This document shows positions 40,131 to 57,159 of a DNA stretch of 64,000 nucleotides, in pieces. The notes under the pieces are model-generated. The model was not told where the DNA came from and made no database searches. It saw only the letters and a list, made by a program, of their open reading frames with translations. Origin of the DNA: Aeoliella mucimassa (GTDB lineage Bacteria > Planctomycetota > Planctomycetia > Pirellulales > Lacipirellulaceae); assembly GCF_007748035.1 (NCBI RefSeq), contig NZ_CP036278.1, positions 4,340,001 through 4,404,000 of the forward strand. Direction: 5' to 3'. The position numbers were made by a program, and so were the translations under genes. The first letter of the stretch is position 1. Every line of letters begins with the position of its first letter.

Positions 40131-41693
40131 ATGCATGGCATTCAGGTGTTTACACTTTCGGCACTCACGCGCTGCAAATGGCTGTTGATTGCGATGGTTC
40201 TCTGGCTGACACTGGGCAGCGTCGTCTGCTTGGCGGAAGAATCGTCGACTTCGTCGAAGCATCCCGACTCCTCGAGGCCGCGAGTGATCGTGACCACCGA
40301 TGGCGAAGTGGACGACCGCTGTTCGATGGTTCGATTCCTGCTCACCAGCAATGAGTTCGACGTGGAAGGTCTGGTGAACAGCAGCTCGCAGTTCCATTGG
40401 CAAGGCGGAACAGGCTGGAGTGCTTTTCATCGCCCGGAGTGGATTAAGGAGTACATCGGACTCTACCGCCAGGTCTACCCGCAACTGCGACAGCACGATG
40501 CCAACTACCCCGCGCCCGACGCATTGCTGCGGTGCTGGAAGATCGGCAACATCGGCCCCGACGGTGAATACGAACAGCGAACCGAGGGAGCCGAGTGGAT
40601 CGCCAACGTGTTGCTCGATGATAGCGACGACCGACCGATTTGGCTGCAGGCCTGGGGTGGCACGAACACCATCGCCCGCGCACTGCGCATCGTCGAGGAG
40701 GAACACCCCGAACGGATGCGCGAGGTGGCCGCGAAGACTCGGCTGTTTCTGATTTGGGAACAAGACAATACCTATCAAGATTACATCCGCCCTCATTGGG
40801 AAAAGTACCAGATGATCACGATCATCTCCGACCAGTTCGACTGCATGGCGTACATCTGGCCGAAGGTGCTTCCCGCTGAAACGCAGCGTTACTTCGACGC
40901 CGACTGGATGGGCGAGCATATCCTGCAGCAGCATGGACCGCTCTGTGCAGCGTACGAGCATGAGAACGGAGCCTTTCGCTCCGAGGGCGATACGCCTGCG
41001 TTTCTGCACGCGATACCAACGGGGCTACGGAGTACCACTTCGCCCGACTGGGGTGGTTGGGGTGGGCGGTTCGAGTTGGTGCGGAATCAAGTGTGGATGG
41101 ATCCTCCTCCCCGCGACGACTGGCTACACCCCACGGGTCGCTGGGGCTACAAGAATAGTTGGTCGAAGCGACTCGAAAATGCTTCGTCGCCCGAAGACGT
41201 GCAGATTCGCACCGAGTACTTCCGCCCGATGTGGCGGTGGTTGCCTCAGGTGCAGAACGACTTTGCCGCCCGGGCTGACTGGTGCGTGAACGGTTACGAT
41301 TCGGCAAATCATCCCCCTCAGGTTGTATTGAAAAATGGTTCATTGAATTTTTCGGCAACGCCTGGCGCGGTGCTGTCGCTCGATGCTTCGAGCAGCCGCG
41401 ATCCGGATGGCGATGGTCTAAGTTTTCACTGGTGGCACTACTGGCAAGCCGGGCAGTTTGCCGGCGAGCCTTTGCCGGAGTCGCACGCGACAACTTGCCA
41501 GGTGACGATTCCGAAGACCGCCAAGCCTGGCGATCGGTTTCATATGATTTGCGAAGTGACCGACTCCGGCACTCCTCCGCTCACGCGATACCAGCGAGTG
41601 GTGATTCGCGTACCGAGCGATAACGACTCGTCACCTAATAGAACCTCTGCCGAGTCGCCGGCCGAAGCTGGCAGCGACGACGAGGGCGAGTAA
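40131..41693 (+). CDS. Secreted DUF1593-type nucleoside-hydrolase-like protein
   Basis: This is a 520-residue protein. ATG at 40131 gives a signal peptide (CKWLLIAMVLWLTLGSVVCL); upstream frame is unlikely. PRVIVTTDGEVDDRCSMVRF has the acidic loop of nucleoside hydrolases (D-G-E-x-D-D), and the body follows DUF1593, a family annotated as cellulose-binding or sugar-acting. Residues about 395-500 form an Ig/cadherin-like C-terminal domain (ASSSRDPDGDGLSFHWWHYW). Its 3' end overlaps the convergent PEP-CTERM gene by 63 bp. Probable extracellular glycoside or nucleoside hydrolase; activity unproven. Confidence 0.8.
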   Translation: MHGIQVFTLSALTRCKWLLIAMVLWLTLGSVVCLAEESSTSSKHPDSSRPRVIVTTDGEVDDRCSMVRFLLTSNEFDVEGLVNSSSQFHWQGGTGWSAFHRPEWIKEYIGLYRQVYPQLRQHDANYPAPDALLRCWKIGNIGPDGEYEQRTEGAEWIANVLLDDSDDRPIWLQAWGGTNTIARALRIVEEEHPERMREVAAKTRLFLIWEQDNTYQDYIRPHWEKYQMITIISDQFDCMAYIWPKVLPAETQRYFDADWMGEHILQQHGPLCAAYEHENGAFRSEGDTPAFLHAIPTGLRSTTSPDWGGWGGRFELVRNQVWMDPPPRDDWLHPTGRWGYKNSWSKRLENASSPEDVQIRTEYFRPMWRWLPQVQNDFAARADWCVNGYDSANHPPQVVLKNGSLNFSATPGAVLSLDASSSRDPDGDGLSFHWWHYWQAGQFAGEPLPESHATTCQVTIPKTAKPGDRFHMICEVTDSGTPPLTRYQRVVIRVPSDNDSSPNRTSAESPAEAGSDDEGE

Positions 41694-44210
41694 CGCGCAA
41701 GAGACCGATGCCGGTTCGGGCACGGCCGCGAGGGCGTCGATGCGCACCCCGCCGGACGACACGGTGCGCCCGAAATTCGCTTTCCAGATGGAGTAATCGG
41801 CCGCGTCGACGGCGCCATCGCCATTCGCGTCGCCGGGCGAGTAGAGAGCTTGGCCGGTGAGGCCCAGGTGGTCGCGCCAGAGCGTGTAGTCGGCCAGGTT
41901 CACGATGCCATCGTTGTTGAAGTCGCCGCTGTTGGTCGGCAGCAGCGCGGCGATTTGCTCCGGAGTTAACGCGTAATCGTAGATCTGAAAATCAGCCAGC
42001 GATCCGCTAAATAAGGGATCGCTGGCCCACTGGCTATCGCCGATCAGGTTGATCGTGGGATTAATGTCGGTAGGGTCGAGCAAAATCTGCCCTGCGACTT
42101 GTGGCTGTCCGTTGATGTAGAGAATGCCGGTGTTGCCGCCGAGCGTGATGGCCAGGTGCACCCACTCGCCGATTGGTAGCGCGTCGGTCGCCAGTATCTG
42201 CTCACCGCCGTTGCTGCTGTCGGTAATCGCAAAACGCATGGTACCATCCGGCGCTTGCGGCGTGAGGAACATGTAGCTGTTGGTATCGTTGCCGAAATCG
42301 AAGATCCGCTGCCAGTCGCCGCCGCCGTTCCACTTTACCCAAGTGGCGATCGTCAGGTCCTCGCTACTGGCGATACCGCTCGGCAACTGCAGGTAGTCGT
42401 CGGCTCCATCAAGCACGATCGCCTGATTCGCCCGGCCGATGGGTCCCGTGGTGTACGTGGGGCTGCCATGCGTGGTCGCGTGATTCGAACCGACTGAGTC
42501 GTTGGCATTGCCACGCAGCAAGTATTGGGCGGTTGGTCCGTCGGTTGGGTTAGCGAGCACAAACTGCCACTGCTGATTCAGGCCGCCGTTGAATTGCCAT
42601 TGAATGATGTTGGTGCTCCCCAAATCGGCGTCGAGGTACATATGGCTATTCGCATTGCGAAGATAGAACGAGCCGTTGCCGGCCTCGTCGACGTACCACT
42701 GCTGACCAGAGTGATCGGCCGTGCCCCATTGGATGACGTCGCCGCCGTTGCCGAGCGATCGCCCGGCGACTTCGGCCGTGCGGCCGCTATTCGCGTTATA
42801 CAAATGGTAGTAACCATTGCGGGTGCGGGTGATTCGCCAGAGTTGATTCAGTCCTCCATCGTCGGAGGCCGAACGGATTTGGGCTCCGTCGTTGGTTCCG
42901 CCATCGACGACTTCCATCACGGAGCCATCGAGCGCGTTGACGATCTTCCAACGATACCCGTCGAGCGCGGGCACGCCGGAGTCGTCGAAATCGATATCCG
43001 CGTACGCCCCTTCGCTCGACCAGGAGCCATCGTTGGCGAAATCGTTGTCGGTATCCGACACCACATGATCGGTATTGGTTTGCAGCATGTATTCACGAAC
43101 GCGGATGCCATTGAAATAAACGTCCTGATCGGTGCTGACGAACCGATACACACTCGGACTGCCGGTGTAGTCGCGTTCGAGCCCACCGGCAAACGCATAT
43201 AGCTCGCCATCGGGGGCGCGATACACCGCGCCGGCCGACTGATTACCGAAATCCTCAGCGTAGCCGAGCCGGTCGCCATCGGAAGCCTGGATCAGCGTGC
43301 CGCGGCCGCGGAGCACGTCGGCCCAAACCATGCCCATGGTCATGCCGCGTTCGGCGCCGGCGAGTATCTCGCCCATGCTATGCAGCTCGGGATTCATGAA
43401 CGGATTGCCGGTGTTCTCGACGTGGTCGATGAAGTTGGTCCAGCTCGTAAGCGAGCCGGCCAGCAGGTGCGACGAGCCAGCGGTGGCTTCTGGCACCTGG
43501 TCGTACCACCATTGGGCGTTGTCGCTATTCAGCGTGCTGGGGGCCATGAAGTACGTGTCGTCGAACGCAGGGTACGTCTTTAGCTCGGCGATGATACTGT
43601 TGAGGTCCGCGGGATTCGCTTGCGTGAAGTTGAAATCGGGCTCGTTGAACGGCTCGACCGCGTACAACGGCGACGAAGTAAAATTCGGCCGACTGTTGAT
43701 GTACTCCTGGGTTGCCTTAATCACACGGGCGTAGTTGGTGACGTTGATGCCGGAGCCCGAGACGTAGCTCGGATCGATCGAGTCGGGGTCGCTGCCGCCG
43801 ATGCCGAGCGTGTAGGGCACGTTGATCCCAAGCTGTTGCGCCAGCTCGAGATGCTGATTCACCTTGGCCTTGGCGGCCGCATTGAGTTCGTAGTTGCCGC
43901 TGCCGAGATCCACCAGCGGCTCGTCGACGTAGACCAGCATGCGCACGATATCGACGTTGCTCCGCCCAATATTCTCAATGCTTTGCCGCACGTTGTCGTA
44001 ATTCGGCCAGGCGGTATCGACTCCCCAGGTGCCGACCGATTTCGACTCCCCCACCGCGGTGGGGCTGAACTCGATGGTGTTAATGGCCATCGCGGTCGCC
44101 TGCCAGCCAGCAAATACCAACAGCAACGAGCAAACGTGCAGCCGCGCAGCGAGAACGCTTCGAAATAGGGTCGGAAACCGAGCAGGCACTCTGCGGATCT
44201 CGCTATTCAT
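41631..44210 (-). CDS. Large PEP-CTERM glycoside-hydrolase-like protein with ricin-B and LamG domains
   Basis: The protein has 859 residues from ATG 44210; upstream frame to 44294 lacks sense. Signal peptide, then a TIM-barrel-like domain (about 45-400) with YAVEPFNEPDF, where N-E-P is the clan GH-A acid/base motif, and NPELHS as a possible nucleophile strand. A ricin-type lectin repeat region follows (about 425-570, QLWRITRTRNGYYHLYNANS and two further Q-x-W units), then a LamG/concanavalin-like domain (about 580-750), two calcium loops (GDFNNDGIVNLADYTLWRDH; GDANGDGAVDAADYSIWKAN) and VPEPASVSCALLALVVAASF. Probably binds and cuts an extracellular polysaccharide. Confidence 0.82.
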   Translation of the reverse strand: MNSEIRRVPARFPTLFRSVLAARLHVCSLLLVFAGWQATAMAINTIEFSPTAVGESKSVGTWGVDTAWPNYDNVRQSIENIGRSNVDIVRMLVYVDEPLVDLGSGNYELNAAAKAKVNQHLELAQQLGINVPYTLGIGGSDPDSIDPSYVSGSGINVTNYARVIKATQEYINSRPNFTSSPLYAVEPFNEPDFNFTQANPADLNSIIAELKTYPAFDDTYFMAPSTLNSDNAQWWYDQVPEATAGSSHLLAGSLTSWTNFIDHVENTGNPFMNPELHSMGEILAGAERGMTMGMVWADVLRGRGTLIQASDGDRLGYAEDFGNQSAGAVYRAPDGELYAFAGGLERDYTGSPSVYRFVSTDQDVYFNGIRVREYMLQTNTDHVVSDTDNDFANDGSWSSEGAYADIDFDDSGVPALDGYRWKIVNALDGSVMEVVDGGTNDGAQIRSASDDGGLNQLWRITRTRNGYYHLYNANSGRTAEVAGRSLGNGGDVIQWGTADHSGQQWYVDEAGNGSFYLRNANSHMYLDADLGSTNIIQWQFNGGLNQQWQFVLANPTDGPTAQYLLRGNANDSVGSNHATTHGSPTYTTGPIGRANQAIVLDGADDYLQLPSGIASSEDLTIATWVKWNGGGDWQRIFDFGNDTNSYMFLTPQAPDGTMRFAITDSSNGGEQILATDALPIGEWVHLAITLGGNTGILYINGQPQVAGQILLDPTDINPTINLIGDSQWASDPLFSGSLADFQIYDYALTPEQIAALLPTNSGDFNNDGIVNLADYTLWRDHLGLTGQALYSPGDANGDGAVDAADYSIWKANFGRTVSSGGVRIDALAAVPEPASVSCALLALVVAASFGRRLGRGSIR

Positions 44211-44735
44211 TCGGGATTGTGGACTTCGACGCGCTGGATTTGTGTGAACGGACCACCAGCAGCCATTGGCTGACCGCGGGCACATGGATCTCATTTTAAT
44301 TTAGTTACATCAACCTAACTCGAATGCGAATCGGGCACCCAAATTGCCAGTCGTCCGACACCATGCGACAATTGGCTCGTCGAAACGAGGATCGGCAGTG
44401 TTGGAAATGCCCCCAAATCCGGGAAACGCAATCGTGGGGGCAATTCTTACATCGACCGTGCATTCTGTAAACACTTATCTCCCTTCGGTTTGCAGTGACT
44501 CGAATCGACGTAAGTCCTTTTCAATTGCCCCCACCCTGGGGGCACCTTTTGTGCTTTTGCAATCAAATTCATCGGATATCTAACTCCTGCCACTCAGGTG
44601 TCATCTGTACACCACTATTAGAGCAGCATTGGTGGCCAATTACCACAAGAAAGTCGGCACTTTGCTGGGTGGCTGCCGATAATTAACAGGGCAGGCGGCA
44701 GGTCGCCTTTTACTCCCTTAGCACGCGAGCAGACG
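44211..44735. other. Gene-free divergent spacer with GC-box inverted repeats
   Basis: GTGGGGGCAATT (44434-44445) and AATTGCCCCCAC (44523-44534) are perfect 12-base inverted copies 77 bases apart. The second also forms a local hairpin TGCCCCC/GGGGGCA (44526-44544), and a further TGCCCCCA stands at 44409. They lie between divergent genes and could be operator or looping sites. No coding sequence is visible. Confidence 0.4.
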
Positions 44736-46060: not shown

Positions 46061-47805
46061 TCACTCGACGGAGGCTGCCAACTCCAAGCGGGCCCCAGAG
46101 AACACCGCGTGGTCGAAGTTGGCCCCGTCGTAATCGGTGGTGACCAGTGTCAAGTATCGAGCGTGAGGGGGAATCGGAACGTCGAAAGCAACAAACCTGC
46201 CATCGGCTCTTAGGCTAGAGGCGAGTTCCTCCATCTCGGTATCGACGGAGAACACTCCGTTGCGTTTGCTGAGGAATACTTCCGTTCCATTCACATAAGC
46301 CGACAAGGCCCGCTCTTCGGTGCTGACGATGACCAACAGATTCGCGCAGGCTTTGTCCTTGTAATACGATGGCTGTGCTATATCAGCATCGTTAATACCT
46401 GCTCGCTCCACGACGAAGCGCATGGCGATGCCAGGCAATCGGCCGGCGGTGCGAAGCTCATCGAGATCGAAGGTGAGCAATTCGTTGGGACTCATCCCGA
46501 TGCCATCTTCCAACTTGCTGGTGAAATTCTCCTGGGTAAATTTCTCGCCCGTTGTACGAATCGGAACCGATGAGATGGAGCGGTAGGTATCGTTGGCTGG
46601 CAACCCGAGCACTGCTGCTCCGCCGCCACCGACGTTCAGGAAGTTAAACAGCACGCCATCTTCGGCCAGTCGGACATCGACATCGAGCCCCCCGTCGTGC
46701 ACCGCGGCGACGCCGAGATCGGTGATCTCCGCGGCCGCCTGAAACGTATCGGACTCTACCGCGTCGTGGAGCGAAGAGGCGATGCTGTCGTCAAACAGAT
46801 TACCCAGCGGTATCGAATGCTCCATAAATGATCGCTGGTTATCCGAGGGAATGTGGAGCGGAAAATCGCGAACGTCGGCGACCTTGCCCTCGCGCAGCAC
46901 CCCTTCTTCATCGAACCACAGATCTCGCCCGGCAGGATGTCGCGGCGGAGCCCCTTGCTGGTGACGTACCGCGCGACCGGCGTGCTCAGCGGGCTGGCGC
47001 CCAGAGCGTGCACGGCCACTTTGCCCTCGGCAGCGTGGTCGCTGGCGTGCACGCCAAACTCGCCGGCACTCAGCTGTACCCGGCCGGAGTTCGTTTCGAT
47101 GTGGAACGGAGCAGTCTCTGAAGGGACCACCACCGATAGCTTGCCGACGAAGAGTTTGCCCCCCTGCTCCGACCGCAACTCATACACCGCGGGCCCCTCG
47201 AGGGTGATGCCAACCCCCGATCGGTAGCTCAGCTCGAGTATGCCTTCTGCGATGCGAATCTGTTGCCCCGCCCGCAATCCGCGAGTCGGAAGCGAGTAAG
47301 GGCTCTCCGAGGGCTGCCAGACCAGATTCTTGGTATTTTGAATCCGCGCGACGACTTCTTCGTCGACTCGCCAGTTCCAGGGGAGCGGCAGAAACTTTGG
47401 CGGCATCACCACCAGCGTGGCCGCCAGGATGCCGACGCCGCATCCCAAACTCACACCGAGGGCGAGAATCGCTGCGGATACGCGATTCGCGAACCGATGG
47501 CGACTCGGCACCGGTGGTTGGCGGACGATCGGCAGTTCGGCCTGCGAATCGGCCGAGTCAGCCGAATCTTGAACGGGATGAATGCTCTCCAGAATCTTCC
47601 TCGAGCTGGCCGTCACCTGTTTGGCGGTCACCAAGTGGGCGACCAGCCGCGACTGCTTAAGGTACAGCGCCCGGGCTGCAGCATGCTGCTTTAATGCTTG
47701 CTGCAGCTGTTCGGCTTCGTCGGACGAGAGCTGCGCGTCGAAGCTTCGCTGAATGAGCGATACGATCTCGGGAGCAACCTCATTGTCGTGGGGATGCTGA
47801 CTCAT
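46061..47805 (-). pseudogene. FecR-type anti-sigma/regulator, broken by a 2-bp frameshift
   Basis: The first frame from ATG 47805 encodes an N-terminal domain, one membrane helix (AAILALGVSLGCGVGILAATL) and a FecR beta domain to about residue 295. Near 46915-46925 the frame changes. Reading ATC-TGG rather than ATC-TG-TGG would give G-E-I-W-F-D-E-E-G-V-L-R-E-G and continue through the 46061 frame. An extra TG explains it: 1745 minus 2 is divisible by three and yields 580 residues. The ATG overlaps the sigma factor stop (ATGA). Either a real lesion or a sequencing error. Confidence 0.8.
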
Positions 47806-48326
47806 GATTTTTCCTCGCGTACGAGTTGCATTTCGATACAACGAGCGAGATTCGAGCGAATTCGCTTGAGCGAATTGCAGACACTCGACTGAGTGCGATC
47901 GAGCAACTCGGAAATCTGCCGAGTGCCGAGTCCTAATTCATAGCGACACTCTACCAATTTGGCATCGGTCGGCGTCAGCTTGTGCAAGCACTGCGAAAGT
48001 GCGTTGAATTCCGACTCTACGTAATCGTTCGATAGCTCGGCCGCATCCTCGCCGAGTTGGGTCATCAGTTCGTCGTCGAAATAAATCGCGCTGCGTCGTT
48101 GATAGGTCAGGAATCGCAACGCTTCGTATTTGGCAATGGTGACCGTCCACCGAAAAAAATCGGTCGAGGTATCGAACTGGTCAAACTTCTGCCAAGCAGT
48201 AATCGCTGTCTGCTGCACAATATCCCGGGCGTCGGCTTGGCTACGAACTAGTCCAAACACGTATCCGAACAGCCGGAGTTGGTGCTTGCTGAAAAGCTCG
48301 GCGAAAACGTCGTGTTTTGATGCCAT
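47802..48326 (-). CDS. ECF RNA polymerase sigma factor
   Basis: This 174-residue protein has region 2 (ELFSKHQLRLFGYVFGLVRS, then DARDIVQQTAITAWQKFDQF) and region 4 (KLVECRYELGLGTRQISELL, with helix-turn-helix continuing RTQSSVCNSLKRIRSNL). This is the planctomycete/verrucomicrobial type that is paired with membrane FecR-like proteins. The stop overlaps the FecR ATG, so sigma and regulator are coupled. It is divergent from the tandem PEP-CTERM gene, a likely target. The start ATG is at 48326. Confidence 0.92.
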   Translation of the reverse strand: MASKHDVFAELFSKHQLRLFGYVFGLVRSQADARDIVQQTAITAWQKFDQFDTSTDFFRWTVTIAKYEALRFLTYQRRSAIYFDDELMTQLGEDAAELSNDYVESEFNALSQCLHKLTPTDAKLVECRYELGLGTRQISELLDRTQSSVCNSLKRIRSNLARCIEMQLVREEKS

Positions 48327-49026
48327 GAGAAGCTATAACGGTCTTGCCGGAATAGGAAGAGAAAGCCGCCAGTCTACCGCCTACACTGGCCGAAAGCTTG
48401 TTACTCCCACACCTATATACCCAAGGCTCGAGTGGCAATTCACTGCGAAACCGAGAAAACAAGCATAATTTTTAAACGGAAACCACCACCTGCTTCGCTA
48501 GTGAGGTTCCTCTATTCTCAGGGTTTCGATAAAATTACCAATCCAAGGGTGAAAAAAGTGTCACATCAGTGGTAACCTAATGAGACGAGTCATGTCGGGC
48601 AGCTGAACAGGCGGCTTTTCGATGTGCGTGAACGGATAGCTTGGTATTTGTTTCGCTTTTCCTAGGCTGAACGCCTAACGACGCACTTTGCAGCGACTTT
48701 TCCTAGATTTCTGATTTAGCCATACGTCGGAGTCTGCTTTTCCATTACTTAGCCGCTGGCTTCATCGACGAGACCCAATGGTTGGTATGCGAAGCACACT
48801 TTACTTCGACAGGCTGCGAACTTCGTAGAACTTATCCTTGTTCAGCCACAGCGGGGGCTTTGGCGGTTTTCACTTTGAAACATCTTTCAAAGACAGCGTC
48901 ATGTCCTGGCGTAGGTACAACGCACCTGCGCTGCGGGCGGTTTGTGAGTGTAACCATCTGAAACTCAACCGGCCCACTGCTGGTGGCAGTCGTTGTGTTT
49001 CAGGGCATTTCCTAACTTCTCTTTTG
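48327..49026. other. Gene-free divergent spacer
   Basis: About 700 bases lie between the sigma factor and the tandem PEP-CTERM gene. GGAAACC near 48479 resembles an ECF-type -35 element but no matching -10 could be fixed. The AT-rich stretch TTTTTAAA just before it may also be promoter. No RNA gene or strong hairpin was seen. Confidence 0.3.
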
Positions 49027-51732
49027 ATGGGACGAAATCTAATGCGCTTCAGACATTTCACTTGGGCGGTCTTGTGCGTGTCGTTTACTTGGGTTCTTAG
49101 TTCTTCAGCTTTTGCGGTGATCATTGCTCAGGACGACTTCAGTGCGACCGACTCAGGAACCGGTTGGGCGGCTGGTAACGCTTGGGAAACCCTCGACCTG
49201 GCCAATGAAAACGCCACGTCGATCAATCAAGTGGGCAGTTTCCGCGATCTGTCTTCGATGGTCGATGTCTCGAATCAGGTGACGTATGTCCGGTTCGACT
49301 TCCAGCGTCTCGCCGGCGGTGGGGCTACCTGGGGAGGAGTCGCGCTCTTCACTGGTCCGGAAGGCAATACTGGAGACGAGATCTTCTTTGTCGGCTCGCC
49401 TGGTTCGATGTCCGACTATGGAGTGGCCACCAAGTTCTACGGTGACTTCAGCAGCCAGATCCCCGTCGACACCGACGTGCACACCATTATCGCCGGGGTC
49501 GACACGACGACCGGAGCCAGCGGCACCGTGACGTACAAACTCTGGGTCGACCAATTTGCACTTAATTCCCCGAATGCAACGTTCACCGCTGAAGATCCAG
49601 AGTGGCCCGCGTTGCTGCCGGTCAGTACGGTTCGGCTGATGTCGAGTGATGTCGCCCACGACGTGTTCGACAATCTGACGCTTGCTACCGAATCGACCGA
49701 CGTAGAGTTGCTCGACCTTGCCAAGGCGACCCTTACGATCGACCGCTCCACCGGATCGGTAGCACTAAGCAGCGCAGCACCCATCGGCAATGTGCTGGGT
49801 TACTCGCTGATTTCTAACGCAGCAGCACTCAACTCCACTAGTTGGACCACCGTTGCTGGCAACTACGACGCGAGCCCCGGAGACGGCTCGCTCGATGCCG
49901 ACGATACCTGGAGCGTAACGAGCCCCGCTGGCAGTGCAACCGAACTGAGCGAAATGGTATCGAGCGCCACGCCTGGCGATGGAGGCACCCTGACCACCAC
50001 CGCCATCGACCTTGGCTCGCCCTGGATTCGGACTCCGGTCGAAGATGTGACCGCGATGCTGATGGTCGAGTCGAATGGCCAAGCAGTGCCTGTAAGAGTC
50101 GAAGTGGAGTACACCGGTGAGATACTACTGGGCGACCTCGACAGCGACAGCGACATCGACGTCGACGATTGGCTCCAGTTCAAATCGGGACAAACGCTGG
50201 TGAACAACCAACTGTCGGGAGTTGCCGCTTATCAACTCGGCGACCTGAATGGCGACTACGACCATACGCTCGAAGATTACATGGCCTTCCGAACCGCTTA
50301 CGATACCGCCAATGGGGCAGGAGCATTCGCCAGCATGGTTTCCGGAGTGCCTGAGCCTTCGACACTGGTAATGCTAGTGGGTGGGCTGGCGGGCTGCTTC
50401 TTCGCCCGTCGCCGGTGGGCGCTGCCTGGCTGTCTGATCGCAGTTGGCGTGATGCTCGGTCTGGCAAGACCCGCCGAAGCGGTCATTTACGCTCAGGACG
50501 ACTTCAGCGCGTCCGACTCCGGCTCCGGCTGGGCGGCCGGCGACTCGTGGGAGAATCTGGGAGATGGCATCGCCAGCACCGCCATCAACGACGCGGCATT
50601 CCGCGCATTGGCTTCACCAGTCACCGCTTACGAGGAGGAAGCCATCTACCTGGCTTTCGATTTCCGACTCGATGTAAAGGGGTCGTGGGGCGGGGTATCG
50701 TTCTTCGATGAGCCCGCCGGAGGCAACGAGGCAATCTTCGTCGGCGATCCTGGTAGCGATGCCAATTACGGGGCAGATCTGCATCCCGGAAACTTGGATA
50801 GTGGACTGCCAGCCGATAATGACTGGCACCGCATGATCCTCGGCATCACCTTCAACACGCCCGAAGGGTTCGACACCTACGATCTGTGGGTCGACAATTA
50901 CAACTATTCCGCTCCCAACGCGACCACGACTCTGTCGATCAATGACAGCCCGATTATCAATGCTTGGCAATCCGTCCGTATCCAATCGAATACGAACGAG
51001 CAATTGAGTGTCGACAATCTCATCTTTGCCAACCAGGACGAGATCGAAGCGATCTTTGCCGTTCCCCAGACAATCGCCGCGATCGTTGACAAAAGCACCG
51101 GCGAAGTGATGCTGCAAAACAACACCAGTGCTGCCATTCCGCTGAGTGGTTACTCGTTGAAAAGCAACAGTGGATCACTCGCTTCCGCGGTTGCCGAAGG
51201 CGACTACAACGACGATGGCGAAGTGAATCTGGCCGACTACACCATTTGGCGCGACAACCTCGGCGCAACCGAAGTCACCTTGCCCAACGACCCGAACGGC
51301 GGCACCATCGGCACCGCTCAGTACGATACCTGGAAAAGCAATTTTGGTCAGATGGCCGAGAGCCCCTGGAATAGCATCGCCGACCAGAGTCTAGCCGGAT
51401 TCCCGGTGGGCGATGGTTCGGGCAACGGCTGGGAAGAGGGCGACCTACTCGACCCGAATGAGTTGCGTGAGTATTACCTGCTCGGCGAATCGATGCTAGC
51501 CGCTGGCCAAGCCATCTCGCTGGGCAACATCTACACCGGTGGTGTCGATGGTACCGAAGACCTGGTCATCAGCTATGCGTCCGGTGAAGAACTGATCCAG
51601 GGTTATGTGCTCTACAACCAAGCGGCGGGCAGTCTGGTTGCTTCGAACCAGTCGGTACCAGAACCCTCGACGCTGATCATGCTTTCCATGGTTGGTGTCC
51701 TGGCGATCGGAGCTCGCCAAGTTCGTCATTGA
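49027..51732 (+). CDS. Tandem PEP-CTERM double protein with internal sorting and signal sequences
   Basis: The protein has 901 residues from ATG 49027 (ATG 49042 is equally possible). Module 1: signal peptide ending S-S-S-A-F-A, a lectin-like beta domain starting VIIAQDDFSATDSGTGWAAG, two dockerin-like calcium loops (GDLDSDSDIDVDDWLQFKSG; GDLNGDYDHTLEDYMAF), and a complete sorting tail VPEPSTLVMLVGGLAGCFFA plus R-R-R-W (50347-50418). It continues without stop into a second signal-peptide-like segment (ALPGCLIAVGVMLGLARPAE, to 50481). Module 2 starts VIYAQDDFSASDSGSGWAAG, with its own loops (GDYNDDGEVNLADYTIWRDN) and tail VPEPSTLIMLSMVGVLAIGA. Two whole proteins are fused. Confidence 0.85.
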   Translation: MGRNLMRFRHFTWAVLCVSFTWVLSSSAFAVIIAQDDFSATDSGTGWAAGNAWETLDLANENATSINQVGSFRDLSSMVDVSNQVTYVRFDFQRLAGGGATWGGVALFTGPEGNTGDEIFFVGSPGSMSDYGVATKFYGDFSSQIPVDTDVHTIIAGVDTTTGASGTVTYKLWVDQFALNSPNATFTAEDPEWPALLPVSTVRLMSSDVAHDVFDNLTLATESTDVELLDLAKATLTIDRSTGSVALSSAAPIGNVLGYSLISNAAALNSTSWTTVAGNYDASPGDGSLDADDTWSVTSPAGSATELSEMVSSATPGDGGTLTTTAIDLGSPWIRTPVEDVTAMLMVESNGQAVPVRVEVEYTGEILLGDLDSDSDIDVDDWLQFKSGQTLVNNQLSGVAAYQLGDLNGDYDHTLEDYMAFRTAYDTANGAGAFASMVSGVPEPSTLVMLVGGLAGCFFARRRWALPGCLIAVGVMLGLARPAEAVIYAQDDFSASDSGSGWAAGDSWENLGDGIASTAINDAAFRALASPVTAYEEEAIYLAFDFRLDVKGSWGGVSFFDEPAGGNEAIFVGDPGSDANYGADLHPGNLDSGLPADNDWHRMILGITFNTPEGFDTYDLWVDNYNYSAPNATTTLSINDSPIINAWQSVRIQSNTNEQLSVDNLIFANQDEIEAIFAVPQTIAAIVDKSTGEVMLQNNTSAAIPLSGYSLKSNSGSLASAVAEGDYNDDGEVNLADYTIWRDNLGATEVTLPNDPNGGTIGTAQYDTWKSNFGQMAESPWNSIADQSLAGFPVGDGSGNGWEEGDLLDPNELREYYLLGESMLAAGQAISLGNIYTGGVDGTEDLVISYASGEELIQGYVLYNQAAGSLVASNQSVPEPSTLIMLSMVGVLAIGARQVRH

Positions 51733-51835: not shown

Positions 51836-52906
51836 ATGTTCGGTGAACAACGATTCCAGCTAGCACGCCATGATCACAAGCGAGCCTTTACTCTGGTCGA
51901 ACTGCTGGTGGTGATTGCCATTATTGGCATTCTCGTCGCCCTGCTGCTTCCCGCGGTGCAAGCTGCCAGAGAGGCCGCCCGCCGGTCGCAGTGCAAAAAC
52001 AACCTGAAACAAATGGGACTGGCCGCCCTTAACCTGGAAAGCAGCCAAGGGCACTTACCACACAGTGGCTGGGGATGGCGATGGGCCGGTGATCCCGATG
52101 GCGGATACGGCGACAAACAGCCAGGGGGTTGGTACTACAACATTCTAGAGTTCACCGAGAATGGCAGCCTTCGCGATCTGGGAAGCGACGGCAATTACTC
52201 CCGCCTTACCACGGCCCAGAAAGACCAAGCGAAGATTTGCGTGTCGACCTCGGTACCGATGTTCTACTGCCCGTCGCGTCGGGGAGCAGGCTATTACCCG
52301 TATGTCCACTCCGACAACTTCTTCAACGTAACACGCCCCGAAGTGCTCGGCCGCAACGACTACGCTGCCAATAGCGGTAGTTTGTTCCCTGGATCGATCT
52401 ACGAAGGACCTCCTGCTCCGCGATCGAACGCTGGCATGCCGGAGATTCGCGACTACTTGGACAATTTCATTGACCACAGCCTGCCGCGACAGATTCGCAA
52501 GAACGGTCGGCTCGGCAATGTCGATATCAGCGGCAACGGTCCCGTGCTGGCCGTTTATGGAGTACGATTGGCCCGGATCACCGATGGCACATCCAACACC
52601 CTATTGTTCGGTGAGAAACATGTAGCGATCGATCAATATGATAATGCGACGTCGTCCGGCAACGACCAGGGTTGGAACCTCGGTTTCGATATCGACATCA
52701 ATCGCTGGACCCAGTATCCGCCGGCTCCCGATTCCGATCCGCTGACGTACGGAGACAGCAGGAATTTCTCGATCTTCGGGAGTGCCCACAGCGGCGGCGT
52801 TCAGTTTGTGAACTGCGATGGTTCGGTCGACATGGTCGATTTCGATATCGACCCCACTGTCTACCTCGCCCGCGGCACCATCAACGGCGGCGAAGTCACT
52901 CAATAG
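51836..52906 (+). CDS. DUF1559-type pseudopilin
   Basis: This 356-residue protein has a prepilin leader R-A-F-T-L-V-E-L-L and helix ([20 protein letters not shown]), then REAARRSQCKNNLKQMGLAA, the diagnostic DUF1559 block. The C-terminal region has NTLLFGEKH and FGSAHSGGVQFVNCDGSV, the usual H-x-G-G ending of the family. These very numerous planctomycete pseudopilins are presumed surface or secretion components. It lies 103 bp after the tandem PEP-CTERM gene, as part of an ECF sigma/FecR/PEP-CTERM/pseudopilin unit. Confidence 0.93.
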   Translation: MFGEQRFQLARHDHKRAFTLVELLVVIAIIGILVALLLPAVQAAREAARRSQCKNNLKQMGLAALNLESSQGHLPHSGWGWRWAGDPDGGYGDKQPGGWYYNILEFTENGSLRDLGSDGNYSRLTTAQKDQAKICVSTSVPMFYCPSRRGAGYYPYVHSDNFFNVTRPEVLGRNDYAANSGSLFPGSIYEGPPAPRSNAGMPEIRDYLDNFIDHSLPRQIRKNGRLGNVDISGNGPVLAVYGVRLARITDGTSNTLLFGEKHVAIDQYDNATSSGNDQGWNLGFDIDINRWTQYPPAPDSDPLTYGDSRNFSIFGSAHSGGVQFVNCDGSVDMVDFDIDPTVYLARGTINGGEVTQ

Positions 52907-52928
52907 GAGTCCTCTCATTCGCTAGCAC

Positions 52929-52955
52929 CAGAGCCTGCGGCACACGCAGGCTCTG
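52929..52955 (+). terminator. Hairpin after the pseudopilin gene
   Basis: CAGAGCCTGC and GCAGGCTCTG are perfect 10-base arms around a 7-base loop, 23 bp after the stop. AAAT follows rather than a T-run. Confidence 0.6.
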
Positions 52956-53039
52956 CAAATCCGCTTCCCACTGCGGCTGGTAACGCTGCTATACTAGGTG
53001 CACTGCGGCTTTGGGGAACGGCCCCAGAGAATCGCTTGT

Positions 53040-54998
53040 ATGCTCCACTTACGATTGACAACGATGATACTGCTGGGATGTTCGCTCCGACCCTGGTTAC
53101 CCCTTTACTCGTTTGCCCTACTGGCGGTGCTGCTCCTTGGCCAGCAGCAGATAGCTAACGCAATTGAGATTCACTCGCCGGATGGCAACATCACGCTTGA
53201 GGTCGAGTTGAAGGAAGAGTCGGGCGAGGGAGTCGTTTGCTACTCGGTGACTCGCAACGGGACAGCAGTGCTGGCCGACTCGGCCATTTCGTTCACCACG
53301 GCGGATGGCAAGTCCATCGGCCAGCACCTCCGCCCGTTGGGCGACGCAGAGTTCCGTTCCGCGGATAGCACCTGGCACCCGGTGTATGGTGAGCGAAGCG
53401 AGATTCGCGATCAGTATCAACAAGTCTGCCTAAGGTACGAAGATACCACTGCCGATTGCCGGTTGCGGTTGGAGTTCCGCTGTTATGACATCGGCATCGC
53501 CTTCCGCACGGTCATCGAGCCTACACCTGGGCAGTCGTCGGTCGAGTTGGCCGCTGAGCATAGCGAGTTCCGCTTCGTCGGCGATCACCCCGCCTGGCGG
53601 ACCACCACTGCCCAGGGGAGCTACGACATGGTGCCGCTGAGTCAACTCGGCCGTAATGTGGAACGCCCACTCGTCGTGCAGATCCATTCGCAACTCTACG
53701 CAGCAATTCTCGAAGCAGGAGTCGTCGACTACGCACCCATGACGCTACGCGGTGACCAACAGAACGAAACCTGCGTGGTCAGCCAACTTGGCAGTTCGGT
53801 TCACGCTAAAGGGCCGCTGACCACTCCCTGGCGAGTCGTGATGGTCGCCGCTACTGCCGGCAAGCTGCTCGAAGGCAACGATCTGGTGCTGAACCTCAAC
53901 GAGCCATGCGCGATTGCCGATACCTCGTGGATCAAGCCGGGCAAGGTGCTTCGCGAGGTGAGCCTGACCACCGCCGGGGCGAAGCGCTGCATCGACTTCG
54001 CCGCAAAGCATCACCTGCAGTACGTTGAGTTCGACGCGGGCTGGTATGGCAATGAGTACAACGACAAGTCGGACGCAACCACCGTGACTGTCGATCCCAA
54101 ACGCTCCGCGGGTCCGCTCGACCTGCCAGAAGTAGTCAGGTACGCCAAGCAGCACGACATCGGGATCATTCTGTACGTCAACCGCCGGGCGCTCGAGCAA
54201 CAACTCGATGAGCTGTTGCCGCTGTATCAAGCGTGGGGCATCGCTGGCGTGAAGTACGGGTTCGTGAACACCGGTACTCAGCGGTGGAGCACCTGGCTGC
54301 ACGATGCGATTCGCAAAGCGGCCGCGCACGAGCTGATGGTCGACGTGCACGACAACTACCGCCCAACCGGATACTCCCGTACGTATCCCAACTTGATGAC
54401 CCAAGAGGGAGTCCGCGGCGACGAAGAGACGCCTAGCGGGAGTCAGGCACTTACCACGTTGTTCACGCGTTACCTGGCTGGTGCAGGCGACTTCACCGTT
54501 TGCTACTTCAACGAACGCGTGGCCATAAGCTGGACCCACGGGCATCAACTTGGCAAAGCGGTCTGCACTTACTCTCCTTGGCAGTTCTTGTTCTGGTACG
54601 ACGCCCCGCTCGACCCCGAGCACACGGGTTCGGTTCCGGCTGGTCGCATCGCGGAGACTCCAGAGCTGGAGTTCTTTGCAAAAATGCCTACCGTATGGGA
54701 CGAAACCCGCGTGCTAACTGGCGAAATCGGTGAATACGCGGTGATTGCTCGCCGTAGCGGGCAGCAGTGGTTCGTGGGAGCGATGAACAACAAAACCGAG
54801 CGCACCCTGCAACTACCGATGGACTTTCTATCTGAGGGCGAGCAGTACCAAGCGAAGATCTATCGGGATGATCCCAGCCTGGAGACGATTACTAAGATCC
54901 GTGTCGACGAAGAGAGCGTCGATGCGCAATCATCGCTATCGATCAAGCTGCTCCCCAACGGCGGGCAAGCGATGCTGCTCACCCCCGCGAAAGAATAG
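53040..54998 (+). CDS. GH97 glycoside hydrolase
   Basis: This is a 652-residue protein. ATG at 53040 precedes a signal peptide (YSFALLAVLLLGQQQIANA). Family features: N-terminal beta-sandwich starting EIHSPDGNITLEVEL, the TIM barrel with AAKHHLQYVEFDAGWYGNEY, KYGFVNTGTQRWSTWLHDAI and MVDVHDNYRPTGYSRTYPNL followed by QEGVRGDE, and a C-terminal beta domain. GH97 includes alpha-glucosidases and alpha-galactosidases. The Asp in VDVHD suggests the retaining (galactosidase-type) subgroup, which is an inference. First gene of a four-gene operon-like series. Confidence 0.88.
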   Translation: MLHLRLTTMILLGCSLRPWLPLYSFALLAVLLLGQQQIANAIEIHSPDGNITLEVELKEESGEGVVCYSVTRNGTAVLADSAISFTTADGKSIGQHLRPLGDAEFRSADSTWHPVYGERSEIRDQYQQVCLRYEDTTADCRLRLEFRCYDIGIAFRTVIEPTPGQSSVELAAEHSEFRFVGDHPAWRTTTAQGSYDMVPLSQLGRNVERPLVVQIHSQLYAAILEAGVVDYAPMTLRGDQQNETCVVSQLGSSVHAKGPLTTPWRVVMVAATAGKLLEGNDLVLNLNEPCAIADTSWIKPGKVLREVSLTTAGAKRCIDFAAKHHLQYVEFDAGWYGNEYNDKSDATTVTVDPKRSAGPLDLPEVVRYAKQHDIGIILYVNRRALEQQLDELLPLYQAWGIAGVKYGFVNTGTQRWSTWLHDAIRKAAAHELMVDVHDNYRPTGYSRTYPNLMTQEGVRGDEETPSGSQALTTLFTRYLAGAGDFTVCYFNERVAISWTHGHQLGKAVCTYSPWQFLFWYDAPLDPEHTGSVPAGRIAETPELEFFAKMPTVWDETRVLTGEIGEYAVIARRSGQQWFVGAMNNKTERTLQLPMDFLSEGEQYQAKIYRDDPSLETITKIRVDEESVDAQSSLSIKLLPNGGQAMLLTPAKE

Positions 54999-55017
54999 TG
55001 CTGGTGGGGATGCAATA

Positions 55018-57159
55018 ATGTTACGCTCGTTTCCGATGAACTCGCGGTCAACTACGATCACTAGGATGGCCGCACTTGGTTTCGCCATCGGCCTGGTCAG
55101 TTCGGTGTTGGCTGGCGATTGGCAATCGCAGGCGGACCGCTATGCCGAGTTAGCCAAGCTCCCCCCTCCGGCCGGCTATCCTCAAGCAGATGCCAACGAT
55201 ACGTTCTGCGAGCAGTCGTTCTCAGCATTCGCCGAAACCCGCCGCGAGGCATTCCTCCGCTACGCTGCGCAGAACCCACAATCCGGCGTCTGGAGTCAAC
55301 TCGTCCTGGCGGAGCGCGGCCTGCCAGTGTGGGAGGGTTCGATCTACCGCAATCTGCTTCGCATCGATCGCCGGGAAGACACGGCCGACTTTGCGCTGCA
55401 TAGCATCCTGCGGATGCTGTACCAGTACCACGACTCCCCGGCCTTCAGCCGCCAACTCATCGGGTCGGCCGAACGCACGGTGCTCGACTTCAAGTACTGG
55501 CCCGACGAACCTGGCGTCGATTCGATGTGCACCTGGTCGGAGAATCACCACATCCTGTTCGCCAGCGCAGGATACCTGGCGGGGCAACTCTATCCCGAGC
55601 AAACATTTACGAACTCTGGGTGGACCGGCAAAGAGCTGATGGCCAAGCATCGCCCCAGAGTCCTACGTTGGCTCGATTTGCGGTATCGAACCGGCTTCAG
55701 TGAATGGCTTTCGAACGTCTATTACGATGCCGACATGGCCGCCCTGCTCAGTCTGATTGAGTTCTCCGAAGACGAAGAGATCGCCCAGCGAGCGACGATG
55801 GTGCTCGATTTGATGCTCGCCGATATCGCGTGCAACCAGTTCCATGGCAGTCTGGCTTGCACGCATGGCCGAAGCTACGAGTCGCATAAGAAATCGTCCC
55901 TTCGCGAGGGAACCTCGACCGTAAACAAGCTTTGCTTCGGCACCGGCAAGTTTCGCAGCGGTTCGATGAGTGGTGTTTCGATGGTCCTCAGTCCCAAGTA
56001 CCAGATGCCGGAGGTGCTGTACTCGATTGCAAACGATCCCAACCAGCAAGGCATGGTGAGTCGCCAGCGCATGGGCATCCGTGTCGACGAAGCCGCGCGG
56101 TGGGGCCTCGGCTTCGACACTCCTGAGGACGGCATGGTATGGCTCAGCCTCGAAGCCTACGCCCACCCCAAAACGCTTCCTTTGTTTGTGAACATGCTCG
56201 ATGAGTTCCATTGGTGGCAGAACAAGTTCTTCCAACCATTTGCGAAACAGCAAGCGGTCATTCGAGAGGCCCAACGCACCAATCAACTCTCGGCGCTCGC
56301 TACGCAGTACGAGGTCGACATCTCGCGCAATCTGCGTGAAGAGGTCAACATCTACACGTATCGCACTGCGGACTACATGCTTAGCACCGCCCAGGACTAC
56401 CGCGCCGGACTCGGCGGCGATCAGCACTCCATATGGCAAGCAACCCTAGGGCCCGACGCGATGTGCTTTACCACGTATCCGGTGCTCAACGCCAAGGCCA
56501 CGCCTGACAACTGGACCGGCAGTGGTACCTTGCCGCGGGCCGCCCAGCACGAGAACGTCGTGATTGTCATCTACCACCTGGAGCAAACGCCATCGCTCTA
56601 CGTACCCGAGACGGCCGACTTTACCCACGCCTGGCTTCCCCGCGATCGATTCGATGAAGTTATTGAGCGCGACGATTGGGTCTTCGCCCGTCGCGGCGAA
56701 GGGTATCTCGCTCTCTGGTCGTCGCAACCGACGCACTGGCAAGATCAGCTGGGAGACGACTACCAGCGGGAACTCATCGCCGATGGTCGCGACTGCGTTT
56801 GGATCTGCGAACTCGGCTGCAAGACCCACGATGGCACGTTCGAGAAGTTTGCCGATCGTCTTACCGCCGCGCCGATCAGCGTTGCTGATCGCAAGGTCAC
56901 CTATCGTTCGCCGAGCCAGGGAGCGCTTGCGTTTGGCTGGGATGGCCCGCTACTGAAGAACGACGCTCCCATTCCGCTGCACGACTATCCTCGCTATGAG
57001 AACCGTTTCATCCACAGCGATTTCCCCGCCGAACGCGTAACACTGCAGCACGGCAAACAACACCTGGTGCTCGATTGGAGGACACTCGAGCGGACCACGT
57101 ATCCCCCGTTAGATTTCGAGTCGACCAATCCTGAGACAGTTCGCTCGACCAAACCTTGA
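55018..57159 (+). CDS. Secreted protein of unknown function, helical-toroid-like
   Basis: This is a 713-residue protein from ATG 55018 with GGGGATG upstream, 19 bp after the GH97 gene. A signal peptide (RMAALGFAIGLVSSVLAGDW) is visible. The middle (about 130-330) is rich in aromatic helix pairs, with WSENHHILFASAGYLAGQLY and a CNQFHGSLACTHGRSYE block. This recalls the alpha/alpha toroid of polysaccharide lyases and related hydrolases, followed by a beta-rich C-terminal half. No family can be named. Given its neighbours it may act on the same glycan, which is an inference. Confidence 0.75.
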   Translation: MLRSFPMNSRSTTITRMAALGFAIGLVSSVLAGDWQSQADRYAELAKLPPPAGYPQADANDTFCEQSFSAFAETRREAFLRYAAQNPQSGVWSQLVLAERGLPVWEGSIYRNLLRIDRREDTADFALHSILRMLYQYHDSPAFSRQLIGSAERTVLDFKYWPDEPGVDSMCTWSENHHILFASAGYLAGQLYPEQTFTNSGWTGKELMAKHRPRVLRWLDLRYRTGFSEWLSNVYYDADMAALLSLIEFSEDEEIAQRATMVLDLMLADIACNQFHGSLACTHGRSYESHKKSSLREGTSTVNKLCFGTGKFRSGSMSGVSMVLSPKYQMPEVLYSIANDPNQQGMVSRQRMGIRVDEAARWGLGFDTPEDGMVWLSLEAYAHPKTLPLFVNMLDEFHWWQNKFFQPFAKQQAVIREAQRTNQLSALATQYEVDISRNLREEVNIYTYRTADYMLSTAQDYRAGLGGDQHSIWQATLGPDAMCFTTYPVLNAKATPDNWTGSGTLPRAAQHENVVIVIYHLEQTPSLYVPETADFTHAWLPRDRFDEVIERDDWVFARRGEGYLALWSSQPTHWQDQLGDDYQRELIADGRDCVWICELGCKTHDGTFEKFADRLTAAPISVADRKVTYRSPSQGALAFGWDGPLLKNDAPIPLHDYPRYENRFIHSDFPAERVTLQHGKQHLVLDWRTLERTTYPPLDFESTNPETVRSTKP

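Follow-up and report, generated by a model that had tools for sequence, protein, structure and literature searches.

Certain bacterial surface proteins are probably synthesized as a single long chain that is later cut into its parts. Within the window, the stretch of 64,000 nucleotides analyzed here, one gene encodes two homologous modules, each led by a signal peptide and each followed by a PEP-CTERM tail, one of the two tails lying inside the chain. The architecture recurs in the same genome and is conserved in other genera. We consider it likely that exosortase substrates are made here in a conserved polyprotein format, from which a helical hairpin would be excised at each junction by signal peptidase together with exosortase.

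A sorting tail and a signal peptide inside one reading frame

The plus-strand frame at 48829-51732 is uninterrupted up to the TGA at 51730-51732. The likely start is the ATG at 49042 (or that at 49027), which fits the signal peptide MRFRHF...SSSAFA. The gene, its parts and its downstream neighbor are as follows.

49042-51732, + strand: gene for a PEP-CTERM polyprotein of two modules (open frame begins at 48829; the ATG at 49027 is another candidate start)
49042-49116, + strand: N-terminal signal peptide, predicted cleavage SAFA/VIIAQDD (our own reading of the sequence, made without SignalP)
49117-50346, + strand: module 1, beta-rich with a likeness to L-type lectins in a moderate model and a helical pair after it (predicted structure, Foldseek)
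50347-50418, + strand: internal PEP-CTERM tail VPEPSTLVMLVGGLAGCFFARRRW (PF07589, 30.2 bits; PEP invariant in 9/9 aligned relatives)
50419-50481, + strand: internal signal peptide ALPGCLIAVGVMLGLARPAEA, predicted cleavage AEA/VIYAQDD (-1 Ala in 9/9, -3 Ala in 8/9)
50482-51654, + strand: module 2, paralogue of module 1 (homology, predicted structure)
51655-51729, + strand: terminal PEP-CTERM tail VPEPSTLIMLSMVGVLAIGARQVRH (PF07589, 27.4 bits)
51836-52906, + strand: DUF1559/N-methyl prepilin-like gene, neighbor of the window gene

The first-pass annotation had described this layout, i.e., signal peptide, module, tail, signal peptide, module and tail in one frame, and it was right in both place and content. 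Both tails combine the PEP motif, a hydrophobic helix and a basic cluster, and both score above the PF07589 cut-off (30.2 and 27.4 versus 20.7 bits). C-terminal placement is true of the terminal tail only, as the internal one corresponds to residues 436-459 of 896. The segment ALPGCLIAVGVMLGLARPAEA directly adjoins the internal tail, and VIYAQDDFSAS comes next. Each of the two modules is preceded by a signal-like segment according to our own heuristic, and they are homologous to each other, with 40% identity across approximately 280 residues.

The modules were not named by any family in a Pfam scan of the window protein at E 0.01. The term "lectin-like", used for them initially, has no Pfam match behind it at that threshold, but Foldseek searches with the moderate structural model retrieved L-type lectin folds, with low TM-scores. 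Similarly, "dockerin-like" loops gave no Pfam match in the window protein itself, but when seven sister polyproteins were scanned with Dockerin_1, four exceeded its cut-off. The predicted structure of the whole protein (mean pLDDT 68.7, pTM 0.39) has two beta modules and, at the junction, a helical hairpin at residues 439-454/457-473 modeled with low confidence (pLDDT 37-50).

The fused junction is conserved between genera

Relatives of the window protein were found at E 1e-60 in at least 7 of 59 genomes, our own included, among the best 15 candidates scored per genome; the remaining 52 had no match at this threshold among those candidates. Counting our own genome, the fusion is present in five genera, and the relatives are 44-48% identical to the window protein. 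All ten matches span the junction, with a stop in one only (L032), inside module 1. The comparison of related genomes that had been proposed as a check thus revealed a fused state found in several genera and conserved.

The other option in the annotation, that tandem paralogues fused recently and locally, is not supported, given that the fusion is present in six other genomes at 45-48% identity. A sequence artifact, or a recent fusion through loss of a stop codon, might be entertained since single-tail genes in tandem with short spacers do exist. The occurrence of the same fusion in six other assemblies, and of at least 24 such frames in one genome, makes the probability of either negligible.

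The alignment comprised nine of the ten matches, L032 being left out because of its premature stop. The internal P-E-P and the -1 Ala are invariant in all nine, and the -3 Ala is present in eight. No invariant column occurs among the 40 that separate the P-E-P from the -1 Ala, compared with 112 of 666 module columns. Such invariant ends with a free middle are the pattern that would be expected of two cleavage signals flanking a disposable hairpin. In the closest pair, dN/dS was 0.42 for the junction and 0.08 for the modules, and in the next pair 0.52 and 0.20, respectively; synonymous change at the junction is saturated in five of eight pairs, which makes dN/dS uninformative in those. The two usable values mark the junction as coding but quick to evolve, as is typical of discarded signals, and they are also compatible with a loosely constrained linker.

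Frames with several tails recur in the genome

The genome is that of an Aeoliella-like planctomycete; Aeoliella is placed in the Lacipirellulaceae. A search of it with PF07589 yielded 137 matches, often two or three per frame. Stretches were picked for several tails, long frames or similarity to the window protein. The first set contained 23 frames with at least two tails and 37 internal tails, to which L133, a find of the junction model described below, and L041 were later added. The genome thus has at least 24 frames with two to five PEP tails, plus L041, and 24 is a lower bound because part of the genome was read. The raw count of internal tails was 40; one junction of L150 repeats a junction of L012, leaving 39 unique tails. 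All 39 have a signal-like segment within the next 75 residues, as judged by a simple script of our own rather than SignalP; among 790 segments placed at random in the pooled polyproteins, 231 score as signal-like. The tail at residue 1967 of L111 seemed at first to break this rule, but it too has a signal peptide, located beyond a longer loop.

In L041 (3813-7262, - strand; G000:C1:3991812-3995261), an internal PEP tail and a signal peptide precede an alpha-L-fucosidase with an F5/8 type C domain, and at the end of the chain stands a VPESSS segment that resembles a tail but has no P-E-P. L037 has no clear N-terminal signal. Three of the 24 frames (L012, L032 and L036) begin inside a module and therefore look broken upstream. 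Two of these are paralogues of the window protein. L032 (3705-5027, + strand, and upstream) has a premature in-frame stop in module 1 and an intact internal tail; L036 (1570-3837, - strand), where the start of module 1 matches in another frame more than 1 kb away, is apparently disrupted.

The genome contains three exosortase-like genes, two of which are above the TIGR02602 cut-off. L033:2-3448 (- strand; G000:C1 near 1482000-1485450) joins an exosortase domain to an extended PrsT-like TPR region within a frame of 1742 residues.

Junction anatomy in the family

The pooled family set comprised 70 frames with 118 internal tails. A signal-like segment follows each of the 118 tails (231/790 random segments in the same pool), and a strict A-x-A is found in 91 of the junctions, as opposed to 30 of 790 random segments. 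The loop between the two helices has a net charge of +2 or more at every junction. PEP and the predicted cleavage site lie a median of 48 residues apart.

Internal tails could be the decayed, non-functional remains of fusions, as the 2006 founding paper suggests for PEP-CTERM sequences in atypical positions (PMC1569441). Using a tail model built from the stand-alone tails of our genome, we obtained mean scores of 24.1 bits for internal tails and 30.9 bits for those stand-alone tails, which are the training set; stand-alone tails of other genomes averaged 22.8 bits, and the lowest internal score was 1.8 bits. The lower mean of the internal tails relative to the stand-alone tails of our genome would fit decay. 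They nevertheless score near the terminal tails of multi-tail frames (25.7 bits; p 0.12), and PEP is retained at 45-48% overall identity. We regard decay as extremely unlikely, and for this group the data presented here speak against non-function of atypically placed PEP-CTERM segments.

Another explanation is that internal start codons give rise to the downstream modules, the open frame across the junction being incidental. A suitable ATG for the next protein is indeed present in 41 of the 118 junctions, preceded in 20 of them by a purine-rich stretch, and in several junctions of G016 a Met stands right before the signal helix. However, 77 of the 118 junctions lack a suitable ATG, versus 19 of 151 N-terminal signals, and 31 lack any ATG, GTG or TTG, versus 5 of 151. 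Past the tail helix of the window protein, the only candidates are a GTG and an ATG, and both lie so far into the signal helix that no signal peptide could begin there. Fusion is not obligatory, since PEP genes often stand in tandem as separate frames (50 neighboring pairs). No frame bias was seen among these 50 pairs, which occupy all three relative frames (18, 18 and 14), whereas the fused state is old (see below). Internal initiation therefore appears very improbable.

An old three-module chain

Eleven frames of the genome share a common last module, starting with NDRxYxFGDD or a variant. A model of this third module with its junction matched 63 stretches in 19 of 43 family genomes; the other 24 had no match to it. 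We used 62 of the 63 stretches, leaving out G016:C266, which lies at a contig edge. A model of the module alone identified 62 copies, of which 50 are fused behind an internal PEP, one is fused behind VPEG (L075), and 11 are stand-alone or first in their chain. The 51 fused copies come from 15 genomes, and the internal PEP is intact in 50 of them, a proportion somewhat favored because the candidates came from a model that includes the tail.

On a quick tree of the module, in which 21 of 59 inner branches are well supported, the fused state changes only four times over the 62 rows, compared with a mean of 10.3 after shuffling, arguing that the fused state is old. The predicted cleavage site most often falls four residues upstream of the conserved module start, both in fused copies (28/51) and in stand-alone or first copies (5/11). 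In L045 (1798-6783, + strand), three single-tail frames follow one another without being joined; the last starts like the third module (RLDRLYLLGDE), and the trio might be an unfused counterpart of the three-module chain.

Proposed processing of the chain

As architecture, the polyprotein reading suggested initially is strongly supported: the layout is conserved, it recurs in the genome and it is spread across the order. For the topology, for cleavage at both internal sites and thus at the junction, and for equal stoichiometry of the products, we infer the following. The chain would enter the Sec pathway through its N-terminal signal peptide, and module 1 would cross the membrane. The helix of the internal PEP tail would stop transfer, with its arginines in the cytoplasm, and the next helix would act as an internal signal peptide that restarts it. 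Tail and signal would form a helical hairpin in which one basic loop serves both. Signal peptidase I may then cut after A-x-A, giving module 2 a free N-terminus, and exosortase may cut at PEP, so that module 1 is released or attached and a hairpin of approximately 45 residues is discarded. Repeated at each junction of longer chains, this would turn a single message into several surface proteins, equal in amount. The proposed topology rests on the positive-inside rule and on the published placement of PEP at the periplasmic face of the membrane (PMC1569441).

Alternatively, the chain may remain uncut, its hairpins staying in the inner membrane and its periplasmic modules resembling beads on a string. 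The hairpin topology by itself would give such an arrangement, and the junction sequence does vary freely, hydrophobicity and charge aside. However, neither P-E-P nor A-x-A would be required of a plain anchor; in the junction of the window family it is PEP and the -1 Ala that are invariant, and PEP is kept in almost all fused copies of the third module. In addition, stand-alone copies of this module have a signal peptide with a similar offset. We consider an uncut chain unlikely.

Comparison with known systems

The PEP-CTERM/exosortase system (EpsH; TIGR02595, PF07589, TIGR02602) shares with the frames described here the anatomy of the tail, a signal peptide before each module and the exosortase genes in the genome. 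Described substrates differ in having the tail near the C-terminus (PMC1569441), whereas in the window protein a tail lies within the chain and a further signal peptide and module come after it. One working model in the literature is that PEP-CTERM proteins lose their Sec signal and remain anchored until exosortase acts (PMC12188702).

Two other systems offer parallels. FbcH, the cytochrome b/c1 precursor of Bradyrhizobium, is a membrane polyprotein cut by signal peptidase at an internal signal peptide, and thus a bacterial precedent for cleavage at such a site. It has one junction, no sorting tail and products that are subunits of one complex, whereas here two dozen genes of one genome carry two presumed cleavage signals per junction. 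Viral envelope polyproteins also place a hairpin, made of a stop-transfer helix and an internal signal, between one ectodomain and the next. Here, in contrast, the genes are cellular, bacterial and equipped with exosortase tails, and the likeness is one of layout. Searches of open-licence literature, mostly at the level of titles and the beginnings of abstracts, gave no report of PEP-CTERM polyproteins and no paper with both PEP-CTERM and polyprotein.

PEP-CTERM is defined as a C-terminal signal. If a group of bacteria uses it internally, and dozens of times in a single genome, exosortases would act at internal sites, bacteria would apply virus-like polyprotein processing to their own surface proteins, and automatic annotation would take such genes for single large proteins. 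A polyprotein would also provide a direct test of exosortase cleavage, as separate products and new N-termini can be predicted from one chain.

Distribution in the order and the phylum

A junction model built from 31 junctions matched at least 51 of 146 genomes of the order at E 1e-7 among the best 44 candidates per genome; these are candidate fusions. Outside the family, 20 stretches from nine genomes contained 22 frames with 61 internal tails, after removal of one false motif in L126, with up to ten tails per frame. A signal-like segment follows 61/61 of these tails, with a strict A-x-A in 42/61, but the signal rate is not independent evidence because the loci were chosen with the junction model; this selection and that of the third module both lean toward intact junctions. 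The frame with ten tails belongs to G262, a genome 81% complete in about 710 contigs. G279 has a frame with seven tails and FGE-sulfatase domains. In L119 (1594-8874, - strand), a chain of 2427 residues with seven tails, six FGE-sulfatase stretches and near-identical junctions apparently arose by tandem duplication.

A tail-only survey of five genomes of other families (TIGR02595, E 1e-3, best 150 candidates per genome) gave 135 matches, no two in one frame, and this made the format look confined to one family. This survey is insensitive: with a slightly stricter threshold, it found one double-tail frame (G026) in four family genomes and missed the known frames of G014. The impression was overturned by the junction model, which found frames with two or three tails in G038 and G048, both included in the tail-only survey. 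Among 197 genomes drawn from the phylum, the model of the third module matched our own genome alone. Among 294, the junction model at 1e-9 had three matching genomes, our own and a pair from outside the class. One of the pair, G129, has a two-tail frame carrying a sulfatase module; in the other, G376, an internal tail with its signal peptide stands in a frame truncated where the stretch ends.

The modules of such chains include sulfatase, FGE-like, GDSL-hydrolase and fucosidase domains. It seems fairly likely that Pirellulales produce a portion of their surface proteins in polyprotein form, with 2 to 10 exosortase substrates per chain, a reusable hairpin excised by signal peptidase and exosortase, and equimolar delivery of the products.

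Neighborhood of the multi-tail genes

Among the stretches read, 36 of 70 multi-tail frames have a prepilin motif in the 2.5 kb downstream, versus 9 of 95 single-tail frames. The neighbors of the window gene (41634-44294, - strand; 47805-48326, - strand; 51836-57159, + strand) encode a ricin-B/LamG lectin-domain protein with a PEP tail, an ECF-type sigma factor, the DUF1559 prepilin-like protein and a GH97 protein, and the neighborhood looks like a polysaccharide-use locus.
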